A DNA stretch of 64,000 nucleotides from an uncultured Bacteroidales bacterium (GTDB taxonomy: Bacteria; Bacteroidota; Bacteroidia; Bacteroidales; P3). A model generated the notes under the pieces. The model searched no databases and had not been told where the DNA came from. It was given only the letters and a program-made list of their open reading frames with translations. The stretch spans positions 1-64,000 of the forward strand of contig CAJOEN010000004.1 of the NCBI GenBank assembly GCA_905233475.1. Direction: 5' to 3'. The translations under genes and the position numbers were made by a program. This document shows, piece by piece, positions 4,618 through 18,344 of the stretch; the stretch's first letter is position 1, and each line of letters starts with the position of its first letter.

Positions 4618-4648
4618 TTTGAAAATCAAATTTTAAGTTGTATCTTTG
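4618..4648 (+). promoter_or_regulatory. Promoter of the type I restriction-modification operon
   Basis: A TTTG -33 box at 4618-4621, a 19-bp spacer and a TATCTTTG -7 box at 4641-4648 give a near-perfect Bacteroidota sigma-ABfr promoter. Transcription would begin near 4655, which excludes the upstream in-frame start at 4646 and supports ATG 4676 for the first gene. Confidence 0.75.
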
Positions 4649-4675
4649 CAGTTGAAAAGTAATTCTTCTACTACT

Positions 4676-5236
4676 ATGAAAACTTTGAAACTGAAAGATA
4701 TTGCTCACATATTGTCAGGCGTGTATTTACGGCCTTCTCCGTCGGGGAGCATAGTCTATTTGCAGGTTTCCGATTTGCAGGCGTTGCCATCGGTAAACAC
4801 CACCCTGAGAGTGGACTTTGTTCCGAAATTGAACAGATACTTGCTACAAAAAGGCGACATTCTGTTTGCCGGAAAGGGTACCAAGTACCTTTGCCGTATC
4901 TTTGACTTGGAAATTCAGGCAGTGCCATCCACTACATTATATATAATACGTCCGAATCAGGAACGGGTGCTACCCGAATACCTTTGCTGGTTCTTAAATC
5001 TCCCGCAAACAGTGGCCATCCTCAAAGCAACGCAAGTGGGAAGCAACATGCCGATGATTCTTATATCATCATTGGAGGAGCTGAATATACCCCTCCCCGA
5101 CCTTGCCACCCAATCTCAAATTCTTGAAATTGCAAATTTGCAACAGCGTGAGCAACAACTACTTTCGGCAATTTCCGAAAAACGCACCCAGATAACCAAC
5201 CAGATACTATATAAATTTATAAACGAAGACAAATAA
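4676..5236 (+). CDS. Half-size type I specificity subunit (single HsdS-like half)
   Basis: This 186-residue protein has one target-recognition-like domain, from LKLKDIAHILSG at its start to IPLPDLATQSQILEI near residue 140. One C-terminal coiled coil follows (QQREQQLLSAISEKRTQI). A full HsdS has two such halves. It lies 10 bp upstream of hsdM under the operon promoter, while a full two-domain HsdS lies downstream. It could dimerise to form an alternative specificity unit, or be a decayed remnant. ATG 4676 was chosen because it sits just after the promoter. Confidence 0.7.
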   Translation: MKTLKLKDIAHILSGVYLRPSPSGSIVYLQVSDLQALPSVNTTLRVDFVPKLNRYLLQKGDILFAGKGTKYLCRIFDLEIQAVPSTTLYIIRPNQERVLPEYLCWFLNLPQTVAILKATQVGSNMPMILISSLEELNIPLPDLATQSQILEIANLQQREQQLLSAISEKRTQITNQILYKFINEDK

Positions 5237-5246
5237 TAATTTTAAT

Positions 5247-6776
5247 ATGGAAACCAAAAAGATCACCCAAGAAGACATCAACCGCACCGTATGGAAGGCT
5301 TGCGACACTTTCCGCGGCGTTATTGACCCGAGCCAATACAAGGACTATATCCTCACTATGCTTTTTCTGAAATATGTCAGCGACGTGTACAAGTCCAAGT
5401 TGAGCGACTACCTCGTGAAATATGAGGGAGACAGGGAACGTGCTGAGCGTACCATGCGTCACGAAAGGTTTGTCGTACCCGAAAAGAGTTCGTTCGACTA
5501 CCTTTACGATCACCGGAATGCCACCAACATCGGCGAGCTGATCGATGAGGCGTTGGCCGACCTCGAAGACGCCAACCGTGAGAAGATGAGCAGCGAAGAT
5601 GGCAGCAGCATCTTCCGGAATATCAGCTTCAACAGTGCCAACTTGGGCGAAACGAAAGAGAAGAACGCCCGTCTGCGCAACCTTTTGCAGGACTTCTGCG
5701 GGGTGGACTTGGACGAGTCGCATTTGGAGAATAACGACATCATTGGCGATGCTTATATGTACCTCGTCTCAACCTTTGCAGGAGAGGCGGGCAAGAAGGC
5801 TGGGGACTTCTTCACCCCTGCCGAAGTTTCTACCTTGTTGGCGAAACTGACCAAGAGCAAGCCGGGTGCACGCATTTGTGATGTCACCTGCGGTTCGGGT
5901 TCGTTGCTGATTAAGGCTGGTAAGGAGGTGGGTAACAACAACTTCTCGCTTTACGGACAGGAAGTGAACGGCAGCACATGGGCGTTGGCCATGATGAACA
6001 TGTTCCTGCACGGCTTCGACAATGCTGTTATCCGTTGGGGCGACACGCTGCGCAACCCGAAACTGAAAAACAACGACAAGCTGATGAAGTTCGACACGGT
6101 GGTGGCCAATCCGCCTTTCAGTCTCGACAAATGGGGTGCGGAGGAGGCCGCCGGCGATCCCTACAACCGTTTCTGGCGTGGCATCCCGCCCAAAAGCAAA
6201 GGTGACTGGGCCTTCATCAGCCACATGCTGGAGGTGGCCGACGACAACGCCGGAAAGGTTGGCGTCATCATCCCTCACGGTGTGCTGTTCCGTGGCGGCA
6301 GCGAAGGCAAGATCCGCCAGTACATTCTGGAAAACGAGCACACGTTGGAGGCTGTAATCGGTTTGCCGTCCAACCTGTTCTATGGCACGGGCATTCCTGC
6401 CGCCATCGCCATCTTCCGCAATGGCCGTGGCTCGGAGAATGTGCTGTTCATCGATGCCAGCCGCGAGTTTGAGAACGGCAAGAACCAGAACAAACTCCGT
6501 GAGCAGGACATTGAGCATATTGTGAACACCTATCGCCAATTCGCCGACGGCCAACTGAAGCCTGGTGTGGTGGAAGAGAAATACGCCTTCGTGGCCACAC
6601 CTGCCGACATCCGCGAGAACGACTTCAACCTCAACATCCCGCGCTACGTGGACACCTACGAGGAGGAAGCCGAAATCGACATCCCCGCCGTGCAAAAGGA
6701 GATCGAACAGTTGGAAACCGAACTTGCGAAGGTGCAAGGGAAAATGAAGGAGTATTTGAAGGAGTTGGGGTATTGA
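5247..6776 (+). CDS. hsdM: Type I restriction-modification DNA methyltransferase subunit
   Basis: The 509-residue N6-adenine methyltransferase has an N-terminal helical HsdM domain (about 1-140) and a Rossmann methylase domain. The SAM-binding motif is DVTCGSGSLLIKAG near residue 212 and the catalytic NPPF motif IV is in VVANPPFSLDKWG near 288. The C-terminal coiled coil (EIEQLETELAKVQGKMKEY) is the region that contacts HsdS. Length and motifs look intact. It shares the promoter at 4618 with the half-size hsdS. Confidence 0.95.
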   Translation: METKKITQEDINRTVWKACDTFRGVIDPSQYKDYILTMLFLKYVSDVYKSKLSDYLVKYEGDRERAERTMRHERFVVPEKSSFDYLYDHRNATNIGELIDEALADLEDANREKMSSEDGSSIFRNISFNSANLGETKEKNARLRNLLQDFCGVDLDESHLENNDIIGDAYMYLVSTFAGEAGKKAGDFFTPAEVSTLLAKLTKSKPGARICDVTCGSGSLLIKAGKEVGNNNFSLYGQEVNGSTWALAMMNMFLHGFDNAVIRWGDTLRNPKLKNNDKLMKFDTVVANPPFSLDKWGAEEAAGDPYNRFWRGIPPKSKGDWAFISHMLEVADDNAGKVGVIIPHGVLFRGGSEGKIRQYILENEHTLEAVIGLPSNLFYGTGIPAAIAIFRNGRGSENVLFIDASREFENGKNQNKLREQDIEHIVNTYRQFADGQLKPGVVEEKYAFVATPADIRENDFNLNIPRYVDTYEEEAEIDIPAVQKEIEQLETELAKVQGKMKEYLKELGY

Positions 6777-6874: not shown

Positions 6875-7828
6875 ATGTATAAATTAATTGAATATATAAA
6901 ATCGGAATTGGGTATAGACATTGGCGTTTCACCAATAGAAGCCACGCAGAAGAAGGATGTGCCCATTTTTCTGTCCGGATTATATAATTTCTATGACGGA
7001 GAAATTGCTGGGCAGCACATTGTTTTTGCAGAGTTTGTGCCTGAATCAACTTTGTCCCCAGGTCAGTATGCCAAACATAAAAAAATATTGATGGAGGTGT
7101 GGCAAAAACCGATTGTTTTTGTTTTTCGAAGTATTCAGAGTTACAATCGACAACGGATGATTGCACAAGGAATCAATTTTGTGGTACCTTATTCTATGAT
7201 TTATATGCCTGATTTGTTGATTGTATTTTCTAATAATGCAAAGGATAAAGACAATTCAGGGATCCTGCAATATCTTTCCCCAACTGCACAAACAATCTTG
7301 CTATATTATTTTTATGGTACAGGTAATGACTTTTCATACAAGGAGATACAGAAATCACTTGATATGCCATACCCGACGGTTTGCAGGGCGATAGAAAAGC
7401 TTGTAAAATCACAGCTTTGTGAAATTCTCGGGACGCGCAATAAGACCTTGCATTTTGAGAACGACAAGAAAAAGCTGCTTGAAAAAGCGTTGCCGCTGAT
7501 GAAATCTCCCGTAAAAAGAGTGGTATATGCAGAAGAAATCCCTCTCAATGCAATATCTTCTGGAATGACGGCATTGTCGGAATACACATTCCTCAATCCT
7601 GACGAGACGAAACATGTTGCAATAAGCATGGAAGACTTCAAAATGGAAAAAAACTACTACAGGGAAAACGCTTTTATGCCTGTTTATATTGAAGTGTGGA
7701 ATTATGCACCCAGCCTATTTGCCCATGACGGATGGGTTGACAAAATATCACTTTATCTGTCTTTGAAGGACAACAATGATGAACGTGTACAACATGAATT
7801 AACTCAAATGCTGCAAGGATTATGGTAA
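6875..7828 (+). CDS. Winged-helix protein, AbiEi-like antitoxin/regulator partner of a nucleotidyltransferase
   Basis: The 317-residue product has a central winged helix: the run TILLYYFYGTGNDFSY is followed by KEIQKSLDMPYPTVCRAIEK, with a recognition helix near residues 165-185. The N-terminal 130 residues resemble a degenerate nuclease-like fold. Its stop codon overlaps the start of a nucleotidyltransferase remnant in the string ATGGTAA. That gene order is the arrangement of Bacteroidota type IV (AbiE-like) toxin-antitoxin pairs, where the wHTH protein is the antitoxin and repressor. The region is clearly more AT-rich than hsdM. The assignment rests mainly on context and the wHTH. Confidence 0.55.
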   Translation: MYKLIEYIKSELGIDIGVSPIEATQKKDVPIFLSGLYNFYDGEIAGQHIVFAEFVPESTLSPGQYAKHKKILMEVWQKPIVFVFRSIQSYNRQRMIAQGINFVVPYSMIYMPDLLIVFSNNAKDKDNSGILQYLSPTAQTILLYYFYGTGNDFSYKEIQKSLDMPYPTVCRAIEKLVKSQLCEILGTRNKTLHFENDKKKLLEKALPLMKSPVKRVVYAEEIPLNAISSGMTALSEYTFLNPDETKHVAISMEDFKMEKNYYRENAFMPVYIEVWNYAPSLFAHDGWVDKISLYLSLKDNNDERVQHELTQMLQGLW

Positions 7829-8123: not shown

Positions 8124-8408
8124 ATGAAACATCTAAAAGACAATTACAATTTTAGCATATCCTTACGATGCATTGTGTGCGGTCGTGAAGATTGTTTTGA
8201 ATCAAAAGAAGATGGCTCCTATATTAAGTGCACAAATTGCGGCAGGGAATACCATGGTGGACGCGACGAACTCATTGAGTACAACAATGAACAAATTCGT
8301 GAATCTATTGAACAGAAAAAGAAAGAAATAACATCCGATGTTAAAGAAGAGATTCATGATATGATCAAAAAGGCTTTTTCTGGAAATAAACACATAAAAA
8401 TCAAATAG
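8124..8408 (+). CDS. Small zinc-ribbon protein of unknown function
   Basis: This 94-residue protein has a four-cysteine zinc ribbon, CIVCGREDC near residue 17 and CTNCGREY near 37. A charged helical region rich in Glu/Lys follows (residues 52-85) and probably forms a coiled coil. It lies one base upstream of the next gene and within the restriction island. I do not recognise a family. A DNA- or RNA-binding or adaptor role is possible but only inferred. Confidence 0.6.
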   Translation: MKHLKDNYNFSISLRCIVCGREDCFESKEDGSYIKCTNCGREYHGGRDELIEYNNEQIRESIEQKKKEITSDVKEEIHDMIKKAFSGNKHIKIK

Positions 8409-8409
8409 T

Positions 8410-8847
8410 ATGGGACTTGCTTCGATAATTATATCTATCCTTGCTTTATTGGGCTCTCTGGCGACTTACATAATCCATGATCGTAAAATCAAAGGACAAG
8501 AGAAGATGATCAACGACTACCAATTGGCTAAGTTCAAAGAAGATGAGGAAGATAAAAAGAAAGCATTGGTATGTGGCAATATCATAAAAAAAGTAAGAGG
8601 TCAACGTGTTTTGAAAATCTATAATAAGGGCAAAGCCACAGCCACGAACATCAACATACAAGGCCTTGATATTCAAGAGATAGAAGTATATGATAAAATA
8701 TTGCCTTATGAATTAATGAACCCTCAAGATTGTGCTGATATACGATTCTTGATTATTATGGATGCGCCGCCCACTCTGAAATTAACATACACATGGGATG
8801 ATGAATATAAGACAGGAAATACATACACACAAATTTTATCGTTATGA
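8410..8847 (+). CDS. Membrane-anchored protein of unknown function
   Basis: The 145-residue product has one N-terminal membrane helix (ASIIISILALLGSLATYII), a short charged helix and a C-terminal region rich in beta strands (about 55-145), likely cytoplasmic or periplasmic depending on orientation. The gene starts 1 bp after the zinc-ribbon gene and overlaps hsdS by 4 nt (ATGA), so these three genes are translationally coupled. Membrane-anchored small proteins next to defence genes are often sensors or effectors, but nothing here proves that. Confidence 0.6.
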   Translation: MGLASIIISILALLGSLATYIIHDRKIKGQEKMINDYQLAKFKEDEEDKKKALVCGNIIKKVRGQRVLKIYNKGKATATNINIQGLDIQEIEVYDKILPYELMNPQDCADIRFLIIMDAPPTLKLTYTWDDEYKTGNTYTQILSL

Positions 8848-10046
8848 GCAACATTAATATCCCCTTCGGCTACAAATCCTCATCCCTCGGCATCATCCCC
8901 GAAGATTGGGAAGTGAAGAGACTGGGAGAAATAGGTGATTTCTCAAAGGGCAATGGAGTGCCTAAAGACAAAATTATCAAAGATGAGCACGAGCATCCTT
9001 GTTTGACCTATGGCGACTTATATACAAAATATGACTTTGTAATTAAGGACATAAAATCTTTCATTGATGACGATGTCGCATCAGAGAGTAAAGAAATTCA
9101 TATTGGAGATATATGTTTTGCTGGTTCAGGAGAAACGCCAGAAGATATTGGAAAGTGTGCCGCATATATTGAAGAAAGAACTGCTTATGCAGGCGGTGAC
9201 ATTATAATCCTTTCGCCTAACAAGGACATAAACGGCATTTGGCTTTCTTATGTACTTAATTCTGATATTGGTGGGAAACAACGTTACAAATTTGCTCAAG
9301 GATTTTCGATCGTTCATATTTATCCCGACAATCTTAAACGAATACAGATTCCTACTCCCACTTTGAAGGAGCAGCAACGCATCGTTTCCTTTCTTTCCCT
9401 TTGGGACACCGCCATTGCCAAACAAACTGCTCTGATAGAGAAGCTCATCCTGCGCAAGCGCGGCCTCATGCAGCAGCTGCTCACGGGAAAGAAACGGCTG
9501 AAAGGGTTTGAGGGAAAATGGAAGGAAGTGAGATTGGGAGAAATATGCGATTTAACCAAAGGCGAACAGGTAAATTCTGATACTTTAACAGAAACGGGAT
9601 TGTACCCAGTTATAAATGGCGGTATAACTCCATCTGGATATAAAGATGACTATAATACCGAAGCCAATACCATCACTATTAGTGAAGGCGGTAATTCTTG
9701 TGGATTTGTCAATCTGATTAAAACCAAGTTTTGGAGTGGAGGCCATTGTTATACGATATCCAATATTATCAACTTTGACTTGAGCTATCTGTATTATTCA
9801 TTAAAGTTTAACGAACCACATATCATGAATTTGAGAGTTGGTTCAGGTTTACCCAACATTCAACTTGGGCCATTGCAAAAATTTACCTTATTAATGCCCC
9901 AATTAGAGGAGCAAATGGCGATTTCAGCAATCCTTATTGAATCTGACAAAGAAATCGAAATACAAAAACAAAAACTGTCGGACCTGCAGGAGCAGAAGAA
10001 AGGGCTGATGCAGGTGCTGCTGACGGGAAAAAGGAGGGTGAAATGA
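8844..10046 (+). CDS. hsdS: Type I restriction-modification specificity subunit
   Basis: The 400-residue HsdS has two target-recognition domains (about 20-170 and 215-345) separated by conserved helices. The internal repeat is plain: VKRLGEIGDFSKG pairs with EVRLGEICDLTKG, and RKRGLMQQLLTGKKRLKG with EQKKGLMQVLLTGKRRVK. The two domains would read the two halves of a bipartite target site. ATGA overlaps couple it to the genes on both sides (8844-8847 and 10043-10046). No invertase or tyrosine recombinase lies nearby, so shuffling by inversion is not indicated. Confidence 0.93.
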   Translation: MSNINIPFGYKSSSLGIIPEDWEVKRLGEIGDFSKGNGVPKDKIIKDEHEHPCLTYGDLYTKYDFVIKDIKSFIDDDVASESKEIHIGDICFAGSGETPEDIGKCAAYIEERTAYAGGDIIILSPNKDINGIWLSYVLNSDIGGKQRYKFAQGFSIVHIYPDNLKRIQIPTPTLKEQQRIVSFLSLWDTAIAKQTALIEKLILRKRGLMQQLLTGKKRLKGFEGKWKEVRLGEICDLTKGEQVNSDTLTETGLYPVINGGITPSGYKDDYNTEANTITISEGGNSCGFVNLIKTKFWSGGHCYTISNIINFDLSYLYYSLKFNEPHIMNLRVGSGLPNIQLGPLQKFTLLMPQLEEQMAISAILIESDKEIEIQKQKLSDLQEQKKGLMQVLLTGKRRVK

Positions 10047-11773
10047 AAAGAACAAAGATTTGTTGTTTAAACATCAAGCAAGAAATATGCGATTACTTAT
10101 CCAAGACCTTTGAGGTATATAATGGCTGTCTTGGAAAAATAGTTGATGTTAACAAGCAAAACCATCAACAAAACTATACTTATCTTTTGCTTAATCACGA
10201 TTATCCAGAAAATATTCATGAATATGATGTTTTTATAAGTGACTTATCCAATTTCGAGATTATTGAATATAAAAACGAGGACCACCAATTGAACAATATT
10301 GTTGGCAATGAGGCATATTATTTCGTTTCTGAAGCGCCTGCGACTCACTTTAATCCGATCCCATTCGGCTGTGGATTATTAAAAGAAAAAACTTGTGTGG
10401 ACGGCAAAAATAATCGTCCAATCATAAACATTATTTTCCAATACAAAAAACAAAGTATAAATTACAAAATTCGTGATACTGCTGGTTATAGACATAATGA
10501 CACCTCATACGAAGGAACAAATTACTCGCACACCAAAGACTTTACTGTTGATAATAAATATGGAAAAGAAGTTAAAATATGTGATAATAAAATTGCAAAA
10601 ATCATCTTTGAGAACTTTACTGATGAAATTGAATATCATCAAACCTTCAAGCATCCTACAAAATGGGATGATAACGCAGGTGAATCTATTCTTGACCCAA
10701 ATTTTCTACCACTATTAAAAAACAAAAGTGGTCAAATCGTCTCGTATATGTGGATTTCAGAGTATGAAATCGCAATTATGCTGCCACAATTAAAATCAAA
10801 GAAACAACTGCTTGACATTCTTTTTAGAGAAGTACTATTTCAATATTTTTCTGAATATTTTCCCGAAATCGAAACTAAAACTTGGACTCGCAACCATCAA
10901 TATTATTTACCCGAACAACAAAGACTTGAAATAGAAAAGCAGGAAATAACGAAAAAATACCAAGAAGAATTTGATCGTATTGACAAAGAATTGGAAGCAG
11001 CCGCTAACAAGTATAAGTTTTTACACGACATTCTAATTGAAACCGGCGATAAACTCGTAAAAAGTGTAATCACCTATTTAAAATGGCTTGGCTTTGACAA
11101 TGCCATCGAAAAAGACAAAACAGCCACGGAAGGTCTATTAGAGGAAGACATTCAGATTGATTTAGGAGAAAAAGGCCTTCTTATCATTGAAGTCAAAGGC
11201 ATCAATGGAACTTCAAAAGATTCAGAATGTTCACAGATCAGCAAAATCAAATACCGTAGATCAAGAGAACGAAAGAGGTTTGATGTTTTTGCATTATACA
11301 TTGTCAATAATGAGAGGAACATTGAACCTCTTAAAAGAACCATTCCTCCTTTTAATGACAATCAAATTCAAGATGCAATAAACGATGACAGAGGTTTGAT
11401 GTACACGTGGCAATTGTTCAATTTATACTTTAATGTCAAAAACGGATTTATCACCAAAGAAGAAGCACGTAATCGCATTTTACAAACTGGTTTAGTTGAT
11501 TTTACACCAACATTGAAAGAGTTAGGAAAACCTTATTGGTTCTATCAAAACCATACGATAATATGTGTTGAACTGCAAAACAACTTAATACATGTTGGAG
11601 ACACACTTGCCTATGAAAAGGACGGAAGGTATTATCTTATTAAAATTACTGAAATACAGCAAGATAAAAAACCAATTAATGAAGCTTCAGATGGAAAAGT
11701 AGGAATAAAGGTTAATGAAAAAGTCCCTGAAATAAAGACGCTGTATTTTGTAAAACAACATATTAACGATTGA
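10043..11773 (+). CDS. Uncharacterised protein with a PD-(D/E)XK-like nuclease core, coupled to hsdS
   Basis: I do not recognise the 576-residue family. Three parts are visible: an N-terminal half of mixed fold, a coiled coil around residues 290-335, and a segment after YLKWLGFDNAIEKDK that looks like a restriction-endonuclease fold. In that segment EEDIQIDLGEKGLLIIEVKG (about 372-391) supplies the D...EVK catalytic pattern. The start overlaps the hsdS stop by 4 nt, so it is made together with the specificity subunit. Base composition is strongly AT-rich. It could be an extra effector or a separate defence protein using the operon. Nuclease activity is inferred. Confidence 0.6.
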   Translation: MKRTKICCLNIKQEICDYLSKTFEVYNGCLGKIVDVNKQNHQQNYTYLLLNHDYPENIHEYDVFISDLSNFEIIEYKNEDHQLNNIVGNEAYYFVSEAPATHFNPIPFGCGLLKEKTCVDGKNNRPIINIIFQYKKQSINYKIRDTAGYRHNDTSYEGTNYSHTKDFTVDNKYGKEVKICDNKIAKIIFENFTDEIEYHQTFKHPTKWDDNAGESILDPNFLPLLKNKSGQIVSYMWISEYEIAIMLPQLKSKKQLLDILFREVLFQYFSEYFPEIETKTWTRNHQYYLPEQQRLEIEKQEITKKYQEEFDRIDKELEAAANKYKFLHDILIETGDKLVKSVITYLKWLGFDNAIEKDKTATEGLLEEDIQIDLGEKGLLIIEVKGINGTSKDSECSQISKIKYRRSRERKRFDVFALYIVNNERNIEPLKRTIPPFNDNQIQDAINDDRGLMYTWQLFNLYFNVKNGFITKEEARNRILQTGLVDFTPTLKELGKPYWFYQNHTIICVELQNNLIHVGDTLAYEKDGRYYLIKITEIQQDKKPINEASDGKVGIKVNEKVPEIKTLYFVKQHIND

Positions 11774-11903: not shown

Positions 11904-13346
11904 ATGATAACCAAAACTGAACTTCAGGAATTGCTGCAAAGCACCGAAACCTATCGGGTGGAACGCACCACCTCCACCACTGATATGGACAAGTTTCAGG
12001 AGGCCATCTGCGCTTTCTCCAACGACTTGCCCAACTCCAAAAAGAATGGGTACCTAATTCTGGGCGCATACGATAATGGTGCGCTGTCGGGACTCAAAGT
12101 GGATGATGCTTTGATGAAAAGGATTGCCGCCATCCGTTCCGACGGCAACATCCTCCCCTTGCCGATAATGTCGGTAGAGCGTTTCGAGTTCCCTGAAGGC
12201 GACTTGCTTGTGGCCGAGGTCTCCCCCTCACTGCTTCCTCCAGTTCGCTATCGTGGACGAACCTTTGTGCGCATCGGGCCACGCCGCGACATTGCCACCG
12301 AAGCCGAGGAACGAATCCTCTTGGAACGCAGAACCTCCTATATGGCCACTTTTGATGCGATGCCCTGCTTAGGCGCCACCATCAACGACATAGACACCAA
12401 CTATATCAAGCAGGAATATCTTCCACAAGTGATAGATGCGGAGGTGCTGGCCAACGACACACGGGACATCAAAGAGCAACTTGCTTCCATACATCTGTAT
12501 GACCTGACACACGATTGTCCCACCAATGCAGCCATTATTCTTTTCGGTAATAATCCACAATATTACTTGCATGGTTGTTATGTCCAATATGTACATTTTG
12601 CAGGGAAAGACAATGGAAGTGAAATCATTAACGAACGTCAAGTAAAGGGAAGTCTATGCAAAATGTTACCTCATTTGGAGAACTTTGTCAGAGATGCTGT
12701 CGTAACGTCGCGTCCGATGCCCATTAGTATGTTGCGCGAAAAAACTGTGTACAACTATCCGGAACTTGCACTGAGAGAGTTGCTGATGAATGCATGTATG
12801 CACAGAGATTATCAGTCAAACATGCCCATCCGACTATATCAATACGAAGACCGGATAGAGATTTTGAACGCTGGAGGTTTATATGGCGAAGCGCGTCCGG
12901 AGAATTTCCCCACGGTGAATGACTATCGAAATCCCGTTGTGGCCGAAGCCATGCGAGGCTTAAAGTATGTCAATATGTTTAACCGTGGTATCCAACGCGT
13001 TAAAACGATGCTCCAAGAAAACGGCAATCCCGAGCCCGAGTTCAAAGTAGATAAAATCACTGCTTTTGAGGTAACGGTGAGACCGACTTTATCACTTAAC
13101 CTAGTCACTGATAAAGAAAAAGTGACTAAGTCTGTGACCAAGTTAACAGAAATATTCAACGAAATTCTTACATATTGTTCCAATCCTCGAAGTCTAACAG
13201 AAATCATGGGGCATATAGGCCTTAAGCATCGGTATTATGTAAAGCACCATTACATAGATCCGCTTATTGAGGGTGGTTTCCTAGTTATGACCATTCCCGA
13301 CAAACCCAACAGCAGAAATCAAAAATACCAGCGTAATTTAACTTAG
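11904..13346 (+). CDS. Schlafen/AlbA_2-domain ATPase-like protein (first copy)
   Basis: This 480-residue protein belongs to the COG2865 type. An N-terminal AlbA_2/Schlafen domain (about 1-120, with YLILGAYDNG) is followed by a GHKL-type ATPase-like domain (ALRELLMNACMHRDY near residue 291, then IEILNAGG). A Val-Thr-Lys linker (LVTDKEKVTKSVTK, about 400-413) leads to a C-terminal winged helix. Such proteins are common cargo in type I loci, where they are thought to be regulatory or defence-related; the function is unproven. The TAG stop sits inside a repeat related to the linker. Confidence 0.75.
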   Translation: MITKTELQELLQSTETYRVERTTSTTDMDKFQEAICAFSNDLPNSKKNGYLILGAYDNGALSGLKVDDALMKRIAAIRSDGNILPLPIMSVERFEFPEGDLLVAEVSPSLLPPVRYRGRTFVRIGPRRDIATEAEERILLERRTSYMATFDAMPCLGATINDIDTNYIKQEYLPQVIDAEVLANDTRDIKEQLASIHLYDLTHDCPTNAAIILFGNNPQYYLHGCYVQYVHFAGKDNGSEIINERQVKGSLCKMLPHLENFVRDAVVTSRPMPISMLREKTVYNYPELALRELLMNACMHRDYQSNMPIRLYQYEDRIEILNAGGLYGEARPENFPTVNDYRNPVVAEAMRGLKYVNMFNRGIQRVKTMLQENGNPEPEFKVDKITAFEVTVRPTLSLNLVTDKEKVTKSVTKLTEIFNEILTYCSNPRSLTEIMGHIGLKHRYYVKHHYIDPLIEGGFLVMTIPDKPNSRNQKYQRNLT

Positions 13347-13452
13347 TCACTTATCTTAGTCACTGACAAAAAACTGTGACTAAGTTATTTATCAAATCAC
13401 TGAAATCAAACATATTAGCAGATGATAACTTAGTCACTCAAAAGTGACCAAG
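13101..13452 (+). repeat. Linker-derived ~30-bp repeats inside and behind the first AlbA_2 gene
   Basis: Related copies lie at 13101-13130 (coding, LVTDKEKVTK), 13355-13384 and 13429-13452, with a part copy at 13341-13350 that contains the TAG stop. Each full copy is itself an inverted repeat, TTAGTCACT facing AGTGACTAAG, so the transcripts can fold into hairpins. The post-stop copy at 13355 still reads LVTDKKL in the frame of the gene. Confidence 0.7.
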
Positions 13453-13518
13453 TAAAATGACAATAAAACACATTCAAAAGAGATTAACCGAATATAATCA
13501 ATAACAAACATCAAAAAT

Positions 13519-15045
13519 ATGCCACTACCAGTAAACATAGAGTCATTGATTGACGGCCGTGTAGTCGAAAGCGACAGAATAGAATTCAAGAAAGGATGGA
13601 ATCCCGATGCAATCTACCGCACCATCTGTGCATTTGCCAACGACTTTGAAGACATTGGCGGAGGTTACATCGTAGTCGGTGTCGATGAAGAAAACGGCAG
13701 GGCAAAACGACCTGTATGCGGTCTGGAGATCAACGAGCTGGACAACATCCAGAAATCAATGATTGGTTTCAACAATCTAATACAGCCCTATTATCAGCCG
13801 AGAACTGCCATAGAAGATGTAGATGGCAAAAAGGTGCTTGTGATATGGGCTACAGCCGGTGATCGCAGGCCGTACAAAGTGCCAGACCACGTAACAGCAA
13901 GTCATAAAGAGTACAACTACTATATTCGTTACAACTCAAGTTCGATAGTAGCCAAAGGCGAATACGAAGTAGAGTTACTGAATATGGCAAATCGTGTACC
14001 CTTCGATGACAGAGGGAATATATCTGCCACAATTAGCGATGTTTCCATGTTGCTGATAAGAGACTTCCTCACACAAACGGGCAGTAAATTGGTTAGCCAG
14101 CTTGAGACCAGCTCCCCACTCCAAATACTTAGGCAAATGGACTTAGTCGAAGGGCCTAACGAAAATGTCAGAGTGAAGAATATTGCTTTGATGTTATTTT
14201 CCTATCAGCCAGAGAAATTTTTCCCAAATACTCAAGTAGATATTGTCATCTATCCCAAGGGTAAGGACGCCGATCCTGATAATTTCATAGAAATAGATCC
14301 CATAAAGGGACCTGTACATCAGATTATAAGGCGGACTCTTGACTATATAAAAACAATGGTTATTCGCCAAAAAGTTGTTAAGGTCTCAACCAAAGCTGAG
14401 GCTGATAGGACATATAACTATCCTTATCAGGCATTAGAAGAGATCATTGTCAATGCCTTATATCATCGTTCGTATCAAGAACGTGAACCTGTGGAAATTT
14501 CTATAATGCCAGAACAAATTGAAGTTGTCAGTTATAGCGGTGCTGATAGAAGTATCAGACTTGAAGACCTACGTGCAGGTAAACGAATTCATGCAAGAAG
14601 ATACAGAAACAGAAGATTAGGAGATTTTCTCAAAGAATTGGACTTAACAGAAGGTCGTGGCACAGGTATTCCAACCGTCAAAAAAGAATTGGAGAAGAAT
14701 GGCTCTGGAGATGCTTCTTATGAGTCTGATGAGGATAGAACATATTTCTATGTTTCAATCCCATGCCATAAAGACTTTATCTGTAAAGAATTGATTGTGG
14801 ATGAAGATGGGCATATCCGCGAACGTAAGCTTACTGTTGCAACCGCAGTTGATGTCAGGAAACAGATATTCAATCTCATTGTAGCTAATACTCATATTTC
14901 CCGACGTGAATTGTCTGATATAATTGGAATTAATCAGTCTGCGATTCAAAAACATATTGAGGCATTGGTTAGAAATGGGCTTATTGAGAAACGAGGAATA
15001 AAACGTGGACGCTATTATGTCATTCTTAAGGACATTGAATCTTAG
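13519..15045 (+). CDS. Schlafen/AlbA_2-domain ATPase-like protein (second copy)
   Basis: The 508-residue protein has the same architecture as the gene before it but is divergent. It has an AlbA_2 domain with ESDRIEFKKGWNPDAIYR near residue 16 and GGYIVVGVDEENG near 49. A GHKL-like domain (ALEEIIVNALYHRSY near 304) and a C-terminal winged helix (ISRRELSDIIGINQSAIQKH near 463) follow. It reads in the same direction between the specificity and restriction genes. Two different members in tandem suggest separate acquisition rather than recent duplication. The TAG stop is followed at once by a 12-bp tandem repeat. Confidence 0.75.
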   Translation: MPLPVNIESLIDGRVVESDRIEFKKGWNPDAIYRTICAFANDFEDIGGGYIVVGVDEENGRAKRPVCGLEINELDNIQKSMIGFNNLIQPYYQPRTAIEDVDGKKVLVIWATAGDRRPYKVPDHVTASHKEYNYYIRYNSSSIVAKGEYEVELLNMANRVPFDDRGNISATISDVSMLLIRDFLTQTGSKLVSQLETSSPLQILRQMDLVEGPNENVRVKNIALMLFSYQPEKFFPNTQVDIVIYPKGKDADPDNFIEIDPIKGPVHQIIRRTLDYIKTMVIRQKVVKVSTKAEADRTYNYPYQALEEIIVNALYHRSYQEREPVEISIMPEQIEVVSYSGADRSIRLEDLRAGKRIHARRYRNRRLGDFLKELDLTEGRGTGIPTVKKELEKNGSGDASYESDEDRTYFYVSIPCHKDFICKELIVDEDGHIRERKLTVATAVDVRKQIFNLIVANTHISRRELSDIIGINQSAIQKHIEALVRNGLIEKRGIKRGRYYVILKDIES

Positions 15046-15182
15046 GTGGTCATAAAGGTGGTCATAAAGGTGGTCATAAAGGTGGTCATAAAGGTGGTCA
15101 AAAAGGTGGTCAAAAAAATATAAAATATTCATTACCAATGATTTAATTCAAGCTCATCTAAATTATAAAAGGTGGTCATAAA
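15045..15182 (+). repeat. 12-bp tandem repeat behind the second AlbA_2 gene
   Basis: Four perfect units of GGTGGTCATAAA (15045-15092) and two of GGTGGTCAAAAA (15093-15116) follow the stop codon without a gap, and a seventh unit lies at 15171-15182 just before hsdR. Read in the frame one base back they encode Gly-Gly-His-Lys repeats; in the gene's own frame they encode Val-Val-Ile-Lys. Tetrapeptide repeats of the first kind are typical linkers in this protein family. Confidence 0.85.
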
Positions 15183-15206: not shown

Positions 15207-18200
15207 ATGAACCTCATATCCTTCAAAGAAAACGATATCAGCCAGCGGCCGGCATTGGAACTACTGGCTAAAATGGGTTACCAATATCTATCTCCGGAAG
15301 AGGCGATGGCGATGCGCGACAGCAAGACCTCCAACGTACTATTGGAGGAGGTGCTGCGACAACAACTGCGCCAGCTGAACTCCATCCGCATCGGTAGTCA
15401 CAGCGAGGCACGTTTCTCGGAACAGAACATCGAAAACGGCGTGGTCGCGCTGCGCAACGTGCCGATGGATGGCGGTTACCTCAACGCCAACGAAACGGTC
15501 TATAATATGCTCACCCTCGGCAAAGCCTTCGAACAGAGCATAGACGGCGACAAGAAAAGCTACACCATGCGCTATATCGACTGGGAACATCCTGAAAACA
15601 ACGTGTTTCACGTTACGGAGGAGTTCGCCGTCACCCGCGCAGGTTCCAACGACACTTACCGTCCCGACATTGTGCTGTTTGTCAATGGCATCCCGTTGGG
15701 CGTCATCGAGTGCAAACGTCCCGACATCAAAGGGGCCGAAGAACAGGCCATTTCGCAGCACCTGCGCAACCAGCAGGAAGACGGCATCCGAAGCCTCTAT
15801 GTATATAGCGCCCTGCTGTTGGCCATCGGCAACAGTTTCGGCAGTTACGCTACCACTGGCTCCCCCGCACAGTTCTGGAGCAAGTGGCACGAAATGTTCA
15901 TAAACAAAGAGGAGGAAACGGACTATCGGACAGAGCTCCAAAAACTTGTGGAAGTGAGGGAAATCACGCCTCAAGACGAATATCTCTACAACCTTTGTCG
16001 CCCCGAGCGACTTCTGGAACTCATCTTCCATTTCACCATCTACGATGCAGGTATCAAGAAATTAGCACGCTACCAGCAGTATTTCACCGTGAAACAGACG
16101 GTGGAGCGGGTGAAAACGATAGAGGCAGGCCATCGCAATGGAGGCGTGGTGTGGCATACGCAGGGAAGCGGCAAGTCGCTGACCATGGTAATGTTGGCGC
16201 AGAAGATCGCGCAGGAGCCCAGCATCCGCAATCCGCGCATCGTGCTCGTTACCGACCGCACCGACTTGGACAGTCAGATTACCAAGACTTTCCGCAAGTG
16301 CGGCAAAGAGGTGGAGAATGCCACCACCGGACAACGTTTGGTGGAACTGCTTGAGAGCGACACCGATGCTGTCGTCACCACGGTCATCAACAAATTCGCC
16401 ACTGCCATCAAGAAAATACGTCAGCCGCTGACCAATCCCAATATCTTCATTCTGATTGACGAAGCGCACCGCAGTCAGTACAAAGAGCTGGCCGTGCAGA
16501 TGAACCGCGTACTGCCCAACGCCTGCAAAATCGCCTTTACGGGCACGCCGCTGATGAAGAAAGACAAAAACACCGCCCGCACCTTCGGCGGCATCATCAA
16601 ACCGGTTTATACGGTAAAGCAAGCCGTTGACGACAAAGCTGTTGTGCCTCTGCTTTACGAAGGACGCATAGTGCCACAGTCGGTGAACGAAGGTCCTATC
16701 GACAGCTTCTTCGACCGCGTGTGCGAAGATCTCACCGAGTACCAGTCCACTGACCTAAAGAAGAAATTCTCCCGCACCGACAGCCTCAACCAGACCGAGC
16801 AGCGCATTTACTCCATCTCCACCGACATTTCCAAACACTATTCCGAAAACTGGCAACACACCGGCTTCAAGGCGATGCTGGTCACCCCCAAGAAAAAAGT
16901 GGCCATCCAGTACAAGAAATTCCTGGACGAAATCGGGAAAGTCTCCTCCGAAGTGCTGATCACCGCTCCCGATGACCGTGAGGGTGAAGAGATTGCCTAC
17001 GGCAGCACCGCCCAAGAGGTCAAGGATTTCTGGAAACGGATGATGGACGAACACGGCACACCGCAAAAGTATCAGGAAAACCTGATTTCCCGGTTCAAGC
17101 ATCAGGAGAATCCCGAAATCATGATTGTGGTGGACAAGTTGCTGACGGGTTTCGATGAACCGAAGGTGGCGGTGATGTACCTCGACCGCAACCTCAAAGA
17201 CCATACTTTGCTGCAGGCCGTTGCGCGCGTGAACCGCACCTGCGAAGGAAAGGATTTCGGTTACATCATTGACTACTATGGCGTTCTGCGGGAATTGGAT
17301 AACGCTTTGAGTATCTATTCCGAATACGACGAGGATGACCGTCAAGTGTTCCTCGACACGCTCGCACCTGTCAGCGACAAGATAGCAGAGTTGCCGCAAC
17401 GCCATTCCGATCTTTGGGAGCTGTTCAAGATGATTCCCAACAAACGCGATTTGGAAGCCTACGCCCAGTCGTTGCGCATGGAGGACCGCCGACACGAGTT
17501 CTACGACCGACTTAGCGCTTTCTCGTCATTGCTGCAACTGGCACTCTCCACAAAAGAATTTCACGAGAACACGGAGGCCAAAACCATCCAGCACTACAAG
17601 GACGACCTCAATATGTTCGCCAAACTGCGTACCGCTGTGCAGCTACGCTATTCCGACACCATTGACTACAAGAAGTATGAAGCCCGCATTGAGAAACTCA
17701 TCAACCATCATGTGGAGAGCGATGCCGTGAAAATCATCACCAATCTTGTCAACATTTTCGACAAAGAGGACTTCCAGAAAGAGGTGGACAGCGTGGTGGG
17801 CACTGCCGCCAAAGCCGACACCATCGCCACCCGCACGGCTAAATACATCAACGAGAATATGGATTCCGATCCGGCATTCTACAAAAAGTTCTCCCAACTC
17901 ATTAAAGAGACCATTGAGCTTTACGAGCAAGGCCGTCTGACTGACAATGAATATCTGGAAAAGATGATGCAGTACAAAGAGGATGTGCTGAACCATACCG
18001 ACAGCGAACTACCATCCGAACTGGAACACAACAATGCGGCCAAGGCCTATTTCGGCATTGCCTTGGAAAACTACAAACGGCTGTTCCCCGACATGCCTGT
18101 CAAGGATATGGCATTGGCCACCGCCCACGCTTTTGATGAGATTATTCGTCGAACGGTCATTGTAGATGGCTCTGTTTTGGTGGATTGGCAATCGAAAAGC

Positions 18201-18344
18201 GACACCATTGGACGGATGAAAATCGAGCTGGAGGACGAGTTGATAGACAACATCAAACGGAAATACGAGGTGAGTTTCCCCTTCAACGAAATGGATGTGA
18301 TTATTGACGGATGTGTAGATGTAGCAAAAATATGGATACGGTAA
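15207..18344 (+). CDS. hsdR: Type I restriction-modification restriction/translocase subunit
   Basis: The 1045-residue HsdR is complete. The N-terminal nuclease domain ends in the PD-(D/E)XK motif RPDIVLFVNG...GVIECKRPD (about 151-174). Helicase domain 1 has Walker A HTQGSGKSLTMVM near 315 and Walker B DEAHRSQY near 421. Helicase domain 2 has LLTGFDEPKVAVMYLDR and QAVARVNRTCEGK near 645-690. A long helical C-terminal region binds the methylase complex. It translocates DNA and cuts unmodified sites distant from recognition. The start is 24 bp after the last 12-bp repeat. Confidence 0.95.
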   Translation: MNLISFKENDISQRPALELLAKMGYQYLSPEEAMAMRDSKTSNVLLEEVLRQQLRQLNSIRIGSHSEARFSEQNIENGVVALRNVPMDGGYLNANETVYNMLTLGKAFEQSIDGDKKSYTMRYIDWEHPENNVFHVTEEFAVTRAGSNDTYRPDIVLFVNGIPLGVIECKRPDIKGAEEQAISQHLRNQQEDGIRSLYVYSALLLAIGNSFGSYATTGSPAQFWSKWHEMFINKEEETDYRTELQKLVEVREITPQDEYLYNLCRPERLLELIFHFTIYDAGIKKLARYQQYFTVKQTVERVKTIEAGHRNGGVVWHTQGSGKSLTMVMLAQKIAQEPSIRNPRIVLVTDRTDLDSQITKTFRKCGKEVENATTGQRLVELLESDTDAVVTTVINKFATAIKKIRQPLTNPNIFILIDEAHRSQYKELAVQMNRVLPNACKIAFTGTPLMKKDKNTARTFGGIIKPVYTVKQAVDDKAVVPLLYEGRIVPQSVNEGPIDSFFDRVCEDLTEYQSTDLKKKFSRTDSLNQTEQRIYSISTDISKHYSENWQHTGFKAMLVTPKKKVAIQYKKFLDEIGKVSSEVLITAPDDREGEEIAYGSTAQEVKDFWKRMMDEHGTPQKYQENLISRFKHQENPEIMIVVDKLLTGFDEPKVAVMYLDRNLKDHTLLQAVARVNRTCEGKDFGYIIDYYGVLRELDNALSIYSEYDEDDRQVFLDTLAPVSDKIAELPQRHSDLWELFKMIPNKRDLEAYAQSLRMEDRRHEFYDRLSAFSSLLQLALSTKEFHENTEAKTIQHYKDDLNMFAKLRTAVQLRYSDTIDYKKYEARIEKLINHHVESDAVKIITNLVNIFDKEDFQKEVDSVVGTAAKADTIATRTAKYINENMDSDPAFYKKFSQLIKETIELYEQGRLTDNEYLEKMMQYKEDVLNHTDSELPSELEHNNAAKAYFGIALENYKRLFPDMPVKDMALATAHAFDEIIRRTVIVDGSVLVDWQSKSDTIGRMKIELEDELIDNIKRKYEVSFPFNEMDVIIDGCVDVAKIWIR

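Follow-up and report, generated by a model that had tools for sequence, protein, structure and literature searches.

The stretch of DNA analysed here (64,000 nucleotides, hereafter the window) carries a type I restriction-modification (R-M) locus, in which profile matches placed hsdM (5247–6776), hsdS (8844–10046) and hsdR (15207–18344) together on the forward strand. Two further forward-strand genes lie between hsdS and hsdR, and both encode proteins with AlbA_2 and HATPase_c_4 domains: the first (11904–13346; protein P0002) ends in a Fic-like_C domain by Pfam, and the second (13519–15045; protein P0001) ends in a winged helix, as assigned using Pfam, AlphaFold2 and Foldseek. Each is accompanied by repeated DNA sites of its own, giving the order first AlbA_2 gene, its sites, second AlbA_2 gene, its sites, hsdR, an arrangement that might possibly constitute a two-step cascade. 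While hsdM and hsdS provide the context, hsdR is the candidate for a controlled gene. Several other forward-strand open reading frames (ORFs) occur in the locus. A 196-aa ORF 5′ of hsdM (4646–5236) matches half of a type I specificity subunit, and is possibly a partial hsdS able to recombine with the hsdS at 8844–10046. The sizeable ORFs at 10043–11773 and 6875–7828 have no Pfam or NCBIfam family, the sole match of the latter being a weak PADLOC winged-helix match, and a short ORF (8124–8408) resembles the ECs_2282 CxxC putative zinc-binding family at a score under the curated cut-off.

P0001 is 508 aa long and comprises SLFN_AlbA_2 (PF04326, E 5.7e-17, residues 17–143), HATPase_c_4 (PF13749, E 1e-9, residues 324–407) and a C-terminal winged helix (PF13412, E 4.5e-8, residues 447–490). 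An AlphaFold2 model (mean pLDDT 82.1, pTM 0.59) placed the winged helix at codons 440–502 (14836–15024, forward strand). Its third helix, residues 473–485 (QSAIQKHIEALVR; 14935–14973, forward strand), was assigned as the recognition helix from the model together with a position check. Using Foldseek, the whole model matched the family structure 3lmm, and the modelled winged-helix part resembled ArsR/MarR-type repressors. P0001 thus has all three parts of the Schlafen AlbA_2 – HATPase_c_4 – wHTH family, in the same domain order and in a defence context. Schlafen-kinase-wHTH proteins are described, in the accessible part of the account, as RNase back-up effectors found in at least 1,017 taxa and linked to BREX-type systems (PMC12839542). 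The initial annotation of this DNA had called the two AlbA_2 genes unrelated, a description that does not hold, as P0001 and P0002 share both the AlbA_2 and the HATPase_c_4 domain, at 24–25% identity.

Directly at the 3′ end of the P0001 gene lies an array of six 12-bp units (15045–15116, forward strand; core GGTGGTCA), which is the proposed operator. It consists of four copies of GGTGGTCATAAA followed by two of GGTGGTCAAAAA, with the consensus core RGTGGTCA, and its first G is the final base of the P0001 stop codon (TAG, 15043–15045). Tandem Repeats Finder reported 15044–15116 with period 12, 6.1 copies, 98% matches and a score of 132, the highest of all 47 rows returned for the window. The place, unit and frame given in the initial annotation were therefore confirmed, as was its reading of the frame one base back: frame −1 runs GGHK four times, GGQK twice, then NIKYSLPMI and a stop. 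A lone seventh copy of GGTGGTCATAAA was found by sequence scan at 15171–15182 (forward strand), 36 nt 5′ of the hsdR ATG. When a doubled unit was searched for with up to 3 mismatches, the 2.3-Mb genome contained a single such place, the array locus itself, and outside the array the 64-kb window holds two chance copies of RGTGGTCA. Twelve-bp repeats are also familiar from EcoR124-type systems, where repeats in hsdS alter the spacing of the target site. The array is like these in being a 12-bp repeat of variable number in a type I R-M locus; it differs in lying outside hsdS (8844–10046) and, in the window subfamily, outside any gene.

To place the array in its subfamily, eight distinct relatives of P0001 at about 74–90% identity were compared (L010, L039–L044 and L107; L011 is the same contig as L044). 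In all eight, an array lies 3′ of the stop codon and is untranslated, mostly in the form RGTGGTCAAATA. Copy number varied, with 6+1 units in the window, 8 in L039 and L040, 6 in L041 and L042, 9 in L107, 7 in L044, at least 4 in L043 (where the contig ends) and 13.2 in L010 by Tandem Repeats Finder. The genes of L042 and L107 are 97.2% identical, yet 6 units follow the first and 9 the second. Across the seven relatives scanned (L039–L044 and L107; 7.6–13.5 kb each), RGTGGTCA was confined to the array and the other strand was empty. The array overlaps a TAG stop in the window, L010, L041, L042, L044 and L107; where a motif contains TAG, it is natural for a gene to end in its own repeat. In L039, L040, L041, L042 and L107 the hsdR ATG follows 10–22 nt past the last core. 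L044 keeps its array although no HsdR match was found in 7.75 kb, so that hsdR need not be the target.

These loci also bear on a suggestion of the initial annotation, that the repeats serve frame-switching expression, with ribosomes slipping into the GGHK/GGQK frame and producing an extended protein or an HsdR fusion. The GGQ frame is indeed open across the array in all nine loci, window included, and in L041 it continues into hsdR. However, a unit that has no stop in this frame keeps it open by itself, and hsdR is entered in only one of the six loci in which it comes next in the DNA examined; elsewhere the frame stops after 28–46 residues or, in L043, at the contig end. The stop codons before the array differ (TAG in six of the nine loci, TAA in two, TGA in one). 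When repeat number and phase were surveyed in these homologues, as the same annotation had suggested, number varied and so did phase: in seven of nine loci the array GGQ frame is shifted by 2 relative to the gene, and in the other two by 1, which counts against frame-switching. With stops and frames varying and hsdR entered so rarely, frame-switching or read-through of the array was rejected, and we regard it as exceedingly improbable.

The array was then considered across the wider family. The 80 loci kept from 195 relatives, together with whole genomes, gave 258 non-redundant family proteins, 160 of which have a P0001-type winged helix. After removal of window-gene pieces and exact duplicates, 164 winged-helix instances in 154 proteins were scanned for arrays with copies spaced 9–13, 20–24 or 32–34 apart. 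At the required score of 3.0, an array was present in 138 of the 164 instances and absent from the other 26, while the same score was reached by one of 3,280 codon shuffles and by 13 of 297 other ORFs from the relatives' loci. As many of the sequences are metagenome-assembled genomes, their tandem arrays may be mis-assembled. Where placing was compared (134 cases), the array lay within the gene before the winged helix in 90 and after the stop in 36, with both in one and a spread arrangement in seven; the 90 in-gene versus 36 downstream cases indicate that the element has two alternative places. The in-gene arrays translate as tetrapeptide linkers such as GGQK, TTQK and SSEK, which are mostly polar, and the GGQ-type linker that the initial annotation had placed inside related proteins is present there. 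Exact core copies were counted for 74 genes whose motifs contain three or more G/C (34 further genes with A/T-rich motifs were skipped): 347 of 372 copies fell inside arrays, and none was found within 600 nt upstream. For these 74 genes a conventional operator at an upstream promoter was consequently rejected. R-M controller (C) proteins are small regulators in R-M loci that delay the restriction gene; they are Xre-type HTH proteins, and their C-boxes lie at promoters. P0001 is unlike them in being a 508-aa AlbA_2 protein with 12-bp direct repeats downstream, and in belonging to a family in which the survey of 74 genes found no upstream sites. At other loci, three of seven neighbour proteins matched PADLOC families (TmtA, MkoA and, weakly, type III restriction enzymes).

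The spacing of copies was measured in 64 in-gene arrays. The commonest distances between neighbours were 12 (207 cases), 21 (41), 24 (9) and 33 (7), with other frame-keeping distances being rare (9, three; 15, one; 18, three; 27, none; 30, one; 36, three); these counts rest on our first k-mer caller, which mis-called some arrays, for example those of L011 and L021. In addition, in-gene copies alternate at 10 and 11 bp in L250 and L262 and recur at 11 bp in L038. Copies thus mostly lie about one or two helical turns apart, and since such distances approximate whole B-DNA turns, they argue for proteins aligned on one face of the double helix.

If the array is a binding site, its DNA might be expected to change with the recognition helix. 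This comparison covered one winged-helix class, the Fic-like_C class being viewed around the first gene of the window alone, and used 81 representatives in 24 N-terminal clusters, pairs with less than 45% N-terminal identity and 5,000 permutations; the array of L021 was mis-called in this set, which lowers the statistic. Over 2,703 pairs, array similarity correlated with recognition-helix similarity (r 0.241, reached in 0/5,000 permutations) and equally well with similarity of the remaining winged-helix residues (r 0.230, 0/5,000). Array and winged helix adjoin, so part of this covariation is shared inheritance. Linkage was broken by taking the 971 pairs in which one array lies before and one after the winged helix. 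In these, r was 0.236 for the recognition helix (0/5,000) and 0.091 for the rest of the winged helix (273/5,000). When the GGTGGTC class was removed, the helix correlation was 0.127 in the in-gene/downstream pairs (30/5,000) and 0.224 in all pairs (0/5,000); removal of both the GGTGGTC and the xG[VI] classes from all pairs left 0.110 (64/5,000). N-terminal similarity is not what carries the array motif: among pairs with at least 55% N-terminal identity, mean array similarity was 9.29 where the helices differ (1,145 pairs) and 19.45 where they are alike (213 pairs). Prediction from helix to array is far from perfect: when partners were ranked by array similarity in 52 cases, the one with the nearest helix came within the top tenth only 20 times.

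The GGTGGTC class provides an example. Helices of the form SA[IVA][QG][KRG]H pair with GGTGGTC in four N-terminal backgrounds that are 22–28% identical to one another: the window subfamily, where the array is downstream, and L006, L035/L142/L173 (counted as one subfamily at 61–80% N-terminal identity) and L289, where it is in-gene. A fragment from a viral contig (L450) likewise pairs GGTGGTC with a helix of this form, and both L289 and L450 were found by pattern searches blind to the helix. Of the seven genomes that matched the GGQ pattern among 395 of the phylum, one held the window array, one (G257) a gene already in the set and one (G278) the new family gene L289; in the remaining four, a family gene was not seen in the DNA examined. 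The TTQK pattern gave no match in the 395 genomes.

We also asked how far these data could arise from passive repeats, that is, from a linker-coding or hitch-hiking tract whose untranslated copy is a relic and whose correlation with the helix comes from adjacency. Cassette exchange does occur, arrays do adjoin winged-helix codons, and, over all pairs, the remainder of the winged helix correlates as strongly as the recognition helix does. On the other hand, the GGTGGTC core lies on the opposite side of the winged helix in the window subfamily, only the recognition helix clearly correlates in the in-gene/downstream pairs, and the untranslated array is retained in all nine loci. In-gene periods of 10–11 bp, moreover, mean that in some genes the reading frame is not repeated unit by unit, and the synonymous codons described below follow the helix as well. 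A passive origin is therefore considered unlikely.

The TTQK-type linkers offered a means of separating DNA from peptide. Where the helix reads xG[VI]KY, TTQK is spelled ACT-ACC-CAR (L034, L037, L089 and L259), and where it reads DG[VI]NY the spelling is ACT-ACA-CAG (L070, L242 and L279). The same was seen for TTGK, with ACC accompanying Lys in L233 and ACA accompanying Asn in L207, and TTE[KT] uses ACG with DG[VI]YWN in six of six genes. In this first set the Thr codon followed the helix residue in 15/15 genes; against the code, L070 also has two TTEK units with ACG, and ACC occurs alongside ACT in L272, whose helix has Arg. When 149 genomes were searched for TTQKTTQK in any spelling, 13 distinct loci were returned, eight of them new. 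Five of the six informative new loci fit the code (L297, L298, L300, L301 and L302, the last two being short ORFs of 132 and 76 aa), and the exception, L294, is a 131-aa ORF with a Lys helix and ACA; L296, in which the winged helix is absent, and L299, of another helix class, were uninformative. The association of Lys or Asn with ACC or ACA gave p 0.0014 by Fisher's exact test, and 0.015 when near-identical winged helices were merged. Among viral contigs, 130 loci were read from 154 stretches matching three patterns; two ORFs had a P0001-type winged helix, L332 fitting the Thr-codon rule (ACC with Lys) and L450 the GGTGGTC class.

Selection on the peptide cannot act on the choice among synonymous Thr codons. 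This bears on a reading in which protein-level selection favoured the tetrapeptides as flexible linkers, with tandem duplication giving rise to the DNA repeats. Most in-gene periods are 12 or 21 and so keep the frame, and the peptides are mostly polar, both as such a linker would have it; yet some arrays are untranslated, one peptide has different synonymous spellings that follow the helix, and L038, L250 and L262 have in-gene periods of 10–11 bp. Selection for a peptide linker alone was rejected on these three grounds, and the linker reading as a whole is highly improbable. Taken together, comparison of these sequences shows that the DNA of the array, synonymous bases included, tracks the recognition helix of the winged helix encoded with it. 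What the initial annotation had missed is that the repeat is a DNA element going with this helix.

The first AlbA_2 gene of the window has sites of another kind. The motif CTTAGTCAC occurs nine times in 13050–13520, versus 0.70 expected (up to 2 mismatches, both strands), and six of the 12 exact AGTCAC 6-mers in the window fall in the same interval. Sites of this type lie within the gene at 13100 (forward), 13122 and 13134 (both reverse), spanning 13100–13142, and around and after its stop at 13342, 13355 and 13429 (forward) and 13376 and 13444 (reverse), spanning 13342–13452. The TAG stop falls within one such site, both in the window and in three homologues at 84–85% identity (L275–L277). 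The observation that both AlbA_2 genes have repeats at the stop, made in the initial annotation, was thus borne out.

That annotation had further attributed the shared feature to terminal domain exchange at the repeats, and one half of this stands. L278 and L279, at 66–70% identity to the first AlbA_2 protein, differ from it in winged helix and in array, and TTAGTCAC sites are absent from them. Similarly, L045 and L046 are 68% identical to P0001 only up to residue 433, beyond which they have another C-terminus and other repeats. These sequence comparisons indicate that exchange of the C-terminal domain is real. The array as the crossover homology is not supported, as exchange of the winged helix changes the array too; in the window subfamily, moreover, it is located outside the domain that is exchanged, on its far side. 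The initial annotation had also tied its proposal to repeats inside homologous proteins and to a repeat number that is not fixed, and both were found, as in-protein repeats exist in relatives and copy number varies (6 in L042, 9 in L107).

The first gene is also informative about whether the array might act as RNA, in the hsdR leader or in the mRNA of the AlbA_2 gene itself, where it would be bound by AlbA_2 or act on translation. The array does sit in the hsdR leader, and the record names of AlbA_2 proteins often describe them as RNA-binding. The sites of the first gene, however, are on both strands, the spacings fit whole turns of DNA, and the array goes with the winged helix, a DNA-binding fold. 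An RNA role appears very unlikely.

We propose instead, with a probability of roughly 0.7, that the array is an iteron-like operator for the protein encoded beside it, and that array and winged helix are exchanged as a pair. The AlbA_2-HATPase protein would bind, through its winged helix, the RGTGGTCA cores just 3′ of its own gene, with several molecules side by side, one per unit and about one helical turn apart, forming a row on the DNA. Physical binding of the array by the encoded winged helix is very likely, judging by the covariation. Since the row of sites lies at the 3′ end of the regulator gene and in the hsdR leader, the most likely effect of binding would be to keep hsdR low at the level of read-through transcription or of translation; expression of the regulator gene itself would perhaps be limited too. 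Control of hsdR or of the operon through the array is put forward tentatively, at slightly less than even odds. In relatives with the element inside the gene, it is necessarily translated, as the tetrapeptide linker, and the block would act within that gene. Self-binding would keep the Schlafen effector at its own locus, and since array and winged helix change together, the regulator would keep recognising this locus. It is doubtful that AlbA_2 acts as an RNase which array binding restrains. We consider it somewhat likely that the family carries its own address, an array of winged-helix sites about one helical turn apart, lying after the stop or in the linker codons, where a single stretch would be peptide and operator alike, that moves with the winged helix as one cassette, in a helix-to-DNA code that can be read.

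The protein family and the binding of winged helices to direct repeats are already known. In TubR-tubC, according to the accessible part of the report, a winged-helix protein occupies direct repeats lined up close to its own gene, represses the operon and forms a nucleoprotein filament (PMC5016525). The array described here likewise consists of consecutive direct repeats, spaced by about a helical turn and close to a winged-helix gene, with binding suggested by covariation. From the same accessible text, tubC lies upstream of its operon and serves plasmid partition (PMC5016525), whereas the present row is at the 3′ end of, or inside, the regulator gene in a defence locus; homology is not claimed. 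The Schlafen-kinase-wHTH account presents a back-up RNase effector and, in its accessible part, includes no array, binding site or link between linker repeats and the wHTH (PMC12839542). TrlG of Photorhabdus is an AlbA_2 and HATPase_c_4 protein from a small operon; the accessible part of that paper deals with temperature-dependent growth, and arrays are not mentioned there (PMC7554251). In open-licence PubMed Central text, no description of the arrays as binding sites, or of a match between helix and array, was found. A tandem repeat was absent from the regions scanned around L270 (Escherichia coli IncC plasmid) and L273 (Yersinia ruckeri plasmid), which encode shorter AlbA_2 proteins (383–388 aa) adjoining TrlF.

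If the proposal is correct, GGQK, TTQK, SSEK and other such repeats would be encoded operators and not linker curiosities, and would represent a clear example of a coding sequence under selection as the site to which its own product binds. What a common defence-linked family binds could then be tested directly and cheaply, and the arrays would lend themselves as data for working out a code of DNA recognition by winged helices, in which SA[IVA][QG][KRG]H would correspond to GGTGGTC, DG[VI]K to ACTACC, DG[VI]N to ACTACA and DG[VI]YW to ACTACGG. Such a code would make the specificity of many uncharacterised regulators readable from their own genes. It would also suggest how a possibly harmful Schlafen effector, and the restriction enzyme adjoining it, might be restrained.

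A number of further arrays were seen in the course of the survey. The strictest, in L159, has twelve copies of an exact 11-bp repeat directly 3′ of a family gene. In L157, L140, L164 and L180, cores of the TTGGCGATT, ATTGGGCAA and ATTGCACA types, spaced at 9/11 bp or 20 bp, lie 3′ of family genes, and are perhaps dyad half-sites. L239 and L240 (685–719 aa) have 21-bp periods that correspond to 7-residue peptide repeats in a long C-terminal part, and L121, L149, L152 and L124 each have at the C-terminus two near-repeated winged-helix-like domains with scattered AQV/AQD peptides. A short 12-bp array of GGNGGACAA units lies in a 48-aa ORF of genome G342 (L287, contig C26); a family gene was not seen in the 3 kb examined, and this is possibly an orphan array. 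Finally, the genome of the window itself encodes a further AlbA_2 paralogue (L248, contig C40), which has an in-gene 12-bp array, ATTAAATGGTCA, unlike either array in the window.
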